DNA of 64,000 bases from Carboxydothermus hydrogenoformans Z-2901. Its GTDB lineage: Bacteria; Bacillota; Z-2901; Carboxydothermales; Carboxydothermaceae. A program made the position numbers and the translations under genes. How positions within the stretch are numbered: the stretch's first letter is position 1; each line of letters opens with the position of its first letter. The DNA lies in the NCBI RefSeq assembly GCF_000012865.1, contig NC_007503.1:744001-808000 (forward strand), given 5' to 3'. This document shows positions 18,097 through 41,911 of this stretch, in pieces. The notes below the pieces were generated by a model that ran no database searches, was not told where the DNA came from, and saw only the letters and a program-made list of their open reading frames with translations.

Positions 18097-18456
18097 GTGA
18101 AAGAAAAGGCTCCGGTGTGTAAGGTTACTTTATTTGATGAAGAAACGGTCCAGACAATTCGCCAAAACTTACCCGGTGAAGAGACAATTATCGAGCTTTC
18201 CGAGGTGTACAAATCCCTGGGAGATGGAACCAGGCTCAAGATTTTGCTGGCCTTAAAAGAAAAAGAAAGTTGTGTTTGTGATTTAGCCGCTGCCCTTTCC
18301 ATGAGCCAGTCGGCTATTTCCCATCAATTACGGGTTTTGCGGAATGTGCGCTTGGTGAAATACCGAAGAGAAGGGAAAATGGTTTACTACAGTTTGGATG
18401 ATGAACATATTTTAAAAATTTTACAGGAAGGTTTAAACCATATTACCCATAAATAG
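18097..18456 (+). CDS. ArsR/SmtB-family metal-responsive repressor
   Basis: 119 residues. It has a winged helix with the recognition segment SMSQSAISHQLRVLR and the alpha-3 metal site motif CVCDLAAAL (ELCVCDL-type, about 49-51). The N-terminus also carries a Cys (VCKVTLFDEE), as in CadC-type Cd/Pb/Zn sensors. A C-terminal alpha-5-like segment (DDEHILKILQEGLNHITHK) contains His and Asp residues. It should repress its own operon and release on metal binding. The P-type ATPase gene starts 12 bp downstream. Confidence 0.88.
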   Translation: MKEKAPVCKVTLFDEETVQTIRQNLPGEETIIELSEVYKSLGDGTRLKILLALKEKESCVCDLAAALSMSQSAISHQLRVLRNVRLVKYRREGKMVYYSLDDEHILKILQEGLNHITHK

Positions 18457-18468
18457 GTTGGTGAAATT

Positions 18469-20529
18469 ATGGCAAAAAATAGTATTTTTTACCTTACCGG
18501 ATGCAGCTGACAGAGCTGTGCAGCCGTTCTGGAAGAACGGGTGAAAAAGCTTCCCGGTGTCATAGATGCTGAACTTGATTTTGCGGCAGGGAAACTGAAA
18601 GTTTTAGGGGATGTGGACCCTGAAGTTATTATCAAGGAAGCGGAAAAAGAAAAATTTAAAGCTTATTTATCCCGGAGTGATGTTCCAAAAGCTCAAAATT
18701 TTTTCAAAGAAAATTACCTTTTACTTATGGGAATATTGTTTTTGCTTGTTGGTACCGGTATTAACTTTATCGGCCAGGATAAAGTAGCTTCATTATTTTA
18801 TTTAGCGGCAATTCTGGCCGGTGGCCGGGAAACCATTGAAAAAGGTTTAAAAAACCTGTGGCAACGAAAAATAACCAGCGATTTATTAATGTTAACCGGC
18901 CTAATTGGGGCGATGGCGTTAGGAGAATTAACAGAAGCAGCTTTAGCAGCGGTATTATTTGGGATAAGTGAGTTTGTCGAGAACTATAATCTTGAAAAAG
19001 CCCGTACTGCTTTAAAAGAGTTGTTTGCAGCAGTACCCGAAGAAGCATTGGTGTTAAAAAATGGTGAAGAACAGCTCTGTAAAGTAGAGGAAATACGTCC
19101 GGGAGATTTGGTAGTTATAAAGCCCGGTGAGAAAATACCTGTGGACGGTGTCCTGAAAAAAGGAAGAATTGAGGTTAGCCAGGCCGCTATTACCGGGGAG
19201 AGCCGGGGAATTTTAAAACTTCCCGGCGAGGAAGTATATGCGGGAAGTATAAATCTTGATGGTTTTGGTATAATTGAAACCCAAAAGCCGAGCGGTGAAA
19301 CGGTTATAGCCAGGATGGCCGAATTAATCGAGGAAGCGCAAAAGGAAAAACTTCCGGCGCAAACGTTGTTAGATAGATTTGCCGCGGTTTATACACCGCT
19401 GGTTTTAGCTCTGGCCTTTTTAGTTGCCTTCATTCCACCGCTTCTCCTTGGTGGTGAATTTCGACTCTGGATTTACCGGGCTCTTACCTTTTTGGTGGTA
19501 TCCTGCCCCTGCGCCCTTTTAATTGCCGTACCGATTTCGGTGATTTCAAGCCTTGGAGCGGCAGCGAGACGGGGAATTGTAGTAAAGGGTAGTCGGAATT
19601 TGGAACAACTTGCCCTGTGTGATACGATAGTATTCGATAAAACCGGGACTTTAACCCGGGGTGAAATGGAAGTTACCGAGGTAATTGCTGTAAGTCCTGA
19701 TTTTTGGCCGGCGGTATATTCTTTAGAAAAAAGGGCAACCCACCCTTTAGCTAAAGCAATTATAAAGGCGGTGCCGGCCGAATATCAAAAAGAAATAGAG
19801 GTTTTAAACTTTCGGCAAATTCCGGGACTGGGAGTGCTCGGCCAGGTTGAGGGTTCCAATTACTTTATCGGTTCACCAAAAGGAATTAAAGAAATTCCCG
19901 AAAGCTTCATAAAAACTCTTCAGGAAATTGAAGAAAAGGGGCAAACGGCCATTTTGGTGGCAAAAGAAAATATTCCCGTTGCCCTTTTAGCTGTGGCGGA
20001 TGTTATCCGGGATGATGCCGGTGAGGCGATTCGAAATATAAAAGCCCTTGGGCTTACCCCGGTGCTGCTTTCTGGTGATAGTAAAAAGGTAGCCCTGCGG
20101 GTTTCCGAGGAGTTAGAAATAGGAAAATGGTACGGTGAAGTTTTACCCCAGGAAAAGCTTACCGTCATAAAAGAGCTGCAGGAAAGCGGACGAAAAGTTA
20201 TAATGGTGGGAGATGGGATTAACGATGCTCCGGCCTTGGCTGCGGCCGATGCGGGTATTGCAATGGGAGAGGGGAGCGGACTTGCCACCACTACAGCGAA
20301 AATAGTTCTTTTGTCGGGGAAATTAAACAATATTCCCTTTTTAATAAAACTTGCGCGCCAAAGCCGGGCTATTGTTAAACAAAATATAATTTTAGCTATC
20401 GGGCTAAAATTGTTGGCCCTGATGGCGATTCTTCCTGGCTGGTTAAACCTCTGGCTGGCAATCGGAGCCGATATAGGGGTTGCTTTGCTGGTTAGTTTAA
20501 ATGGCCTCAGGGTTTTGTGGTTAAAGTAA
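18469..20529 (+). CDS. Selenocysteine-containing Zn/Cd/Pb-translocating P1B-type ATPase
   Basis: 686 residues if the UGA at 18508-18510 is read as Sec14. The ATG at 18469 gives M-A-K-N-S-I-F-Y-L-T-G-C-S-U-Q-S-C, so the heavy-metal-associated GMxCxxC motif becomes GCSUQSC. After it the HMA domain continues in the same frame (VKKLPGVIDAELDF). The remaining motifs are ordinary: membrane helices, TGES, CPC at 346-348 (P1B-2 type), DKTGT with phosphorylated Asp390, HP near 425 and GDGIND at 581-586, then a C-terminal Asp-x-x-Gly helix. It exports soft divalent metals. Starting at GTG 18541 instead would remove half of the metal domain and has no ribosome site. The 3' end overlaps the convergent M23 gene by 23 bp. 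Confidence 0.88.
18508..18540 (+). promoter_or_regulatory. UGA (Sec) codon with bacterial SECIS-like hairpin
   Basis: The UGA is at 18508-18510. Thirteen bases later CCGTTC (18524-18529) pairs perfectly with GAACGG (18535-18540) around the loop TGGAA. A 6-bp stem with a small G-containing apical loop about 20 nt after UGA fits the bacterial SECIS rule for SelB recruitment. Confidence 0.78.
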
Positions 20530-33657: not shown

Positions 33658-33684
33658 AGAGTAAAAAAGATAAGATTTTACCGA

Positions 33685-33768
33685 TAAAGGCAAACCCGGC
33701 GAAAGCCGGCGACGCAAAGCTACAGGGGCTAAGGCCGTAAGGCTATGCCAGCCAGCTGCCGAAGGTGT
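33685..33768 (+). promoter_or_regulatory. Cyclic di-GMP class I (GEMM) riboswitch, copy 1
   Basis: The class I aptamer core is clear: GGCAAACC, a CCGGC-GAAA-GCCGG hairpin with GNRA loop (P2), GACGCAAAGC, the tetraloop-receptor side with GGGGCTAAGGCC and ATGCCAGCCAGCTGCCG closing. Such RNAs bind cyclic di-GMP in gene leaders. A hairpin, AACCCTCC/GGAGGGTT (33782-33808), lies between aptamer and start codon and can act as expression platform. The controlled gene is the secreted protein at 33833. Confidence 0.93.
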
Positions 33769-41792: not shown

Positions 41793-41827
41793 ACATATTA
41801 TAAATCATAACAAGATTCACCCTTTGT

Positions 41828-41911
41828 CAATAGCAAACCCGGCGAAAGCCGGCGACGCAAAGCTACAGGGGCTAAAGCCGTAAGGCTATGCCAGCCAGCT
41901 GCCGAAGGTGT
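41828..41911 (+). promoter_or_regulatory. Cyclic di-GMP class I (GEMM) riboswitch, copy 2
   Basis: Almost identical to the copy at 33685, with two or three differences inside the aptamer. All core elements are present (GCAAACC, GNRA-capped P2, GACGCAAAGC, GGGGCTAAAGCC, closing CTGCCG). It is followed by a terminator at 41924-41952 and then the chemoreceptor-like gene at 41982. The high identity implies recent duplication or gene conversion. Confidence 0.93.

Follow-up and report, generated by a model that had tools for sequence, protein, structure and literature searches.

A P1B-2 metal-efflux ATPase of Carboxydothermus hydrogenoformans is almost certainly a selenoprotein. Judged from the sequence, the in-frame UGA at positions 18508-18510 would be decoded as selenocysteine (Sec) at the first Cys position of the CxxC motif in the N-terminal heavy-metal-associated (HMA) domain (Table 1; coordinates refer to the window, that is, the whole stretch of 64,000 nucleotides analyzed here). 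According to the original prediction, an ATG 12 bp past an ArsR-type gene opens a frame that is closed only by one UGA, and the coordinates and translation agree: the ArsR gene stops at TAG 18454-18456, the ATG of the ATPase follows 12 bp later at 18469, and the frame 18469-20529, with UGA taken as a residue, encodes 686 amino acids and includes a single UGA, at residue 14. The spacing suggests that the two genes are probably co-transcribed. The CxxC motif reads GCSUQSC, with the second Cys in place, and the Pfam HMA match, which amounts to 20.0 bits (cut-off 24.8) when the protein begins at GTG 18541, rises to 40.8 bits when the upstream segment is included, in agreement with the earlier claim that read-through restores the HMA domain and places the UGA on the first Cys of its motif. 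Apart from this one, three HMA domains were found in the genome, all with ordinary Cys.

Table 1. Features of the selenoprotein ATPase locus, in window coordinates.
Feature	Position	Strand	Basis
P1B-2 (Zn/Cd/Pb-type) efflux ATPase, predicted selenoprotein	18469..20529	+	686 aa; TIGR01525, TIGR01512, motifs
ArsR/SmtB-family metalloregulator, CVCDL motif	18097..18456	+	Pfam HTH_5 66.8 bits; NCBIfam HTH_metalloreg 101 bits over cut-off
N-terminal HMA domain with predicted UxxC	18490..18657	+	Pfam PF00403, 40.8 bits, residues 8-63
UGA, putative Sec codon, residue 14, first position of CxxC	18508..18510	+	homologues with Cys or UGA here
Candidate bacterial SECIS	18513..18552	+	folds, inverted repeat, recoding test 3/5000, homologue covariation
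Core hairpin of candidate SECIS	18524..18540	+	
Wider inverted repeat of candidate SECIS	18521..18543	+	
In-frame GTG, possible internal start giving an HMA-truncated pump	18541..18543	+	sequence, ORF list

Several features place the pump in the P1B-2 (ZntA/CadA) group, namely the P1B fold, the CPC motif, the K in TM7 and the DxG in TM8, along with the DKTGT, TGES and GDGxNDAP motifs. Among the NCBIfam models, TIGR01525 (529 bits) and the cadmium-type TIGR01512 (446 bits) matched over cut-off, and the copper-type TIGR01511 remained below its cut-off for this protein. In the segment CPCALLIAVP, the Ser of the usual CPCx4SxP pattern is not kept. Based on its family, the substrate of the pump would be Zn, Cd or Pb. 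In its architecture, catalytic motifs and membrane motifs, this protein agrees with the ZntA/CadA ATPases with a Cys-type HMA domain, which an ArsR-type gene often adjoins, as it does here; the difference lies in the first position of the HMA CxxC, which is Cys in the latter and predicted Sec (UGA) in the C. hydrogenoformans protein. Elsewhere on the + strand of the window, there are two c-di-GMP-I riboswitches (33679-33763 and 41822-41906; 83.1 and 77.4 bits, respectively).

The original prediction looked to homologues for a Cys at the UGA position, and alignment places Cys or UGA exactly there: the best homologues in 60 relatives have one or the other at the position of residue 14, so that the in-frame UGA corresponds to a Cys in homologous proteins, as in other bacterial selenoproteins. 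Of 399 genomes sampled from the phylum, 77 contained a match (E<=1e-28), and in 22 of these a single UGA is the only stop of the frame, in every case at exactly the residue-14 codon; neither UAA nor UAG was found at this codon among the homologue sequences read. In another three of the 77 genomes, the gene contains other stops, away from this codon. The loci L015, L131 and L132 have Cys at the motif and their stops at other places, and for this reason they were excluded from the Sec count. A search of about 85,000 species genomes with a sequence pattern recovered 38 stretches, of which 35 are UGA-type ATPases, from Bacillota and Actinomycetota, some of them sharing one genome; the other three (L066, L076 and L086) lack an ATPase frame and match by chance. 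One homologue (L081, Dethiobacter sp. isolate Tomsk_51_21) has UGA in the first of its two HMA domains (GITULDCA) and Cys in the second (GITCLDCA), and is a natural Sec/Cys pair within one protein. At another locus (L130; genome G410, contig C193, reverse strand), a second frame near the UGA-type Zn/Cd ATPase begins with two HMA domains, with the motifs CAAC and UASC (UGA at the first Cys), and looks like a copper-type ATPase with Sec, although the locus stops before the catalytic part.

The perfect 6-bp hairpin with the loop TGGAA that had been described 13 nt downstream of the UGA is located at 18524-18540 (CCGTTC-TGGAA-GAACGG). In bacterial SECIS elements, the apical loop lies about 16-37 nt after the UGA and has a G among its first two bases. 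The structure obtained with RNAfold for C. hydrogenoformans, a 7-bp stem with the apical loop GGA beginning 20 nt after the UGA, conforms to this rule. The 59-nt region has a z of -2.3 against dinucleotide shuffles, and of 5000 synonymous recodings, only 3 reach the folding strength of the native hairpin. In the UGA homologues, the apical loop of the commonest hairpin begins 21 nt past the UGA and reads, for instance, GAAAA or GAGAA. The mean z in the recoding test is -1.9 for 34 UGA homologues versus +0.29 for 13 Cys homologues, which thus display no excess folding. Across 25 aligned UGA genes, chosen for the common hairpin form, 89.7% of the cells are paired, and both-side changes occur in 21 cells versus a shuffled mean of 8.3 (none of 500 shuffles reached 21). 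The covariation score amounts to 0.287, compared with 0.171 after shuffling and no more than 0.159 when the structure is slid. Since these genes had been chosen for the common form, and since kinship inflates shuffle tests, the slid control and the Cys control weigh more. The C. hydrogenoformans hairpin is slightly shifted in register relative to the common form and lies outside the covariation alignment. Some UGA genes, for example L053, L062-L064 and L014, do not stand out in the fixed 32-nt test; L053, L062, L063 and L064 have longer hairpins, with the loop further downstream. A search of Rfam at the UGA site returned chance-level matches only. A SECIS-like hairpin is kept with compensatory changes in the UGA homologues and is absent from the tested Cys homologues. 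Although the UGA is one base away from UGC or UGU, a sequencing error or a recent, pseudogene-like point mutation of a Cys codon is an extremely improbable explanation, given the identical UGA with a SECIS-like hairpin in dozens of other genomes, the improbability of the C. hydrogenoformans hairpin under synonymous recoding and the closed state of the genome, a single contig of 2,401,520 bp. Two CO dehydrogenases encoded in this genome match the C. hydrogenoformans PDB chains 6elq and 7b7q at all of the 624 positions compared.

The Sec machinery, whose absence would have spoken against the original prediction, was found in the genome: a tRNA-Sec with the anticodon UCA, a match to SelB (398.7 bits) and, immediately before selB and in the same orientation, a match to SelA (642.5 bits). 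None of the refuting conditions of the original prediction that can be checked by computation came true. A survey from 2006 includes SelD among the selenoproteins of C. hydrogenoformans (PMC1794560). Because selA, selB and tRNA-Sec are present, there is no need to invoke nonspecific read-through, a frameshift or an alternative code. Among the UGA-type genomes tested, SelB is over cut-off in 20 of 22; in the genome of L069, SelB is below cut-off, yet SelA and tRNA-Sec match over cut-off, and selB may be situated in an assembly gap. The second of the two exceptions is the genome of Alicyclobacillus sp. ALC3.

Were the UGA an ordinary stop, translation of the ATPase would begin at or near GTG 18541, the product would lack a working HMA domain, and the upstream segment would be a relic. 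The in-frame GTG with GGAAG 5 nt upstream is compatible with this scenario, as is the retention of every catalytic motif in the ORF shortened to this point. We nevertheless consider it very unlikely because the HMA reading survives before the GTG, with the second Cys in place, because UGA, never UAA or UAG, is conserved at the residue-14 codon in many genomes together with a covarying hairpin, and because the genome possesses the Sec machinery. An exception that speaks for an ordinary stop comes from Alicyclobacillus sp. ALC3 (NZ_CP066784.1, genome G071, complete), which keeps two copies of the UGA-type ATPase (L070 and L075), both with SECIS-like hairpins; in this genome, no match to selA was obtained, and none to selB or tRNA-Sec exceeded the cut-off. 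Thus, a UGA in this ATPase gene does not always stand for Sec, and the two copies were possibly acquired recently or are possibly translated from an internal start.

In the C. hydrogenoformans window, the SD-like GGAAG (18531-18535) is embedded in the SECIS hairpin, 5 nt before the GTG (the whole segment spanning 18531-18543), and many UGA homologues have a GTG (Val) at the equivalent place behind GAA/GAG-AAG; the arrangement may be a coding coincidence or an internal start. We give little credence to a scheme in which selenium supply determines which of two pumps is made, the full-length form with the Sec-containing HMA domain when SelB decodes the UGA or, when selenium is short, an HMA-truncated form from GTG 18541. 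Such a layout, if true, could also explain the persistence of the UGA gene in ALC3, where no Sec machinery was detected. For C. hydrogenoformans, Sec insertion at the UGA remains our preferred reading.

On a rapidly built tree of 79 proteins, 10 changes of the Sec/Cys label are required, at least 7 of which are forced by well-supported branches (the two-HMA protein L081, with Sec in the first domain and Cys in the second, was counted as Sec; when labelled Cys, 11 changes are needed). It follows that Sec and Cys have been interchanged repeatedly. The C. hydrogenoformans ATPase forms a long branch (top identity 41%), so that its position in the tree is unsure, and no comparable ATPase match was obtained in two other Carboxydothermus genomes.

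The novelty implied by the original prediction does not hold since the family of Sec-type E1-E2 ATPases with the UxxC motif is already published and catalogued (PMC9312934, PMC13188914, PMC2398784, PMC5029168). A 2026 review credits it to Zhang and Gladyshev 2007 (PMC9312934, PMC13188914); the GOS survey of 2008 reported the same ATPase family with UxxC (PMC2398784), and a survey from 2016 gives a total of 32 genes for it, from 25 organisms (PMC5029168). The C. hydrogenoformans protein, a COG2217/TIGR01525 ATPase with UxxC, matches this family in protein family, motif and taxonomic setting, and no difference was found. The expectation that annotation would miss the Sec has to be abandoned as well, given that an accession of the C. 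hydrogenoformans series, ABB15669.1, is listed in the literature as a UxxC selenoprotein. This accession falls between ABB15544 and ABB16214, both from C. hydrogenoformans (PMC7661550), and one UGA-type ATPase of this kind was seen in the genome; hence ABB15669.1 very probably corresponds to the gene at 18469-20529. The ATPase is absent from the 2006 list of 9 selenoproteins of this organism (PMC1794560). To this record, the present analysis adds the SECIS covariation, the repeated Sec/Cys interchange and the two UGA copies of ALC3. The catalogues returned by our literature search only list the family, and no functional test was found; according to the 2026 review, further study is needed on what exactly these proteins do in the detoxification of heavy metals (PMC13188914). 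Other Sec-containing metal-resistance proteins are the mercuric transport protein, SaoB/SaoC and MbdU, for some of which a metal-ligand role has been suggested (PMC13188914). These share with the ATPase a predicted Sec at or near metal-handling motifs but belong to other families, whereas the ATPase is a primary pump with the predicted Sec in a cytosolic HMA domain.

With respect to function, the gene layout suggests that the ArsR-type repressor would derepress itself and the pump upon entry of a toxic metal. During translation, SelB carrying Sec-tRNA(UCA) would, in all likelihood, bind the hairpin just past UGA 18508 and insert Sec. The selenolate/thiolate pair of the HMA domain could then act as a ligand for a soft metal ion and control or supply the pump, and the Sec/Cys pair might capture metal more tightly or faster than a Cys/Cys pair. 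The earlier suggestion that a selenolate at this place would be a softer ligand than a thiolate for Cd, Hg or Pb, or could sense redox conditions, is a reasonable one.

The usual role of Sec is redox catalysis; in the UGA-type ATPases, which are primary pumps, Sec may instead serve to bind metal in the regulatory domain. The many natural Sec and Cys versions of these ATPases constitute a comparison set for the benefit of selenium in metal handling.
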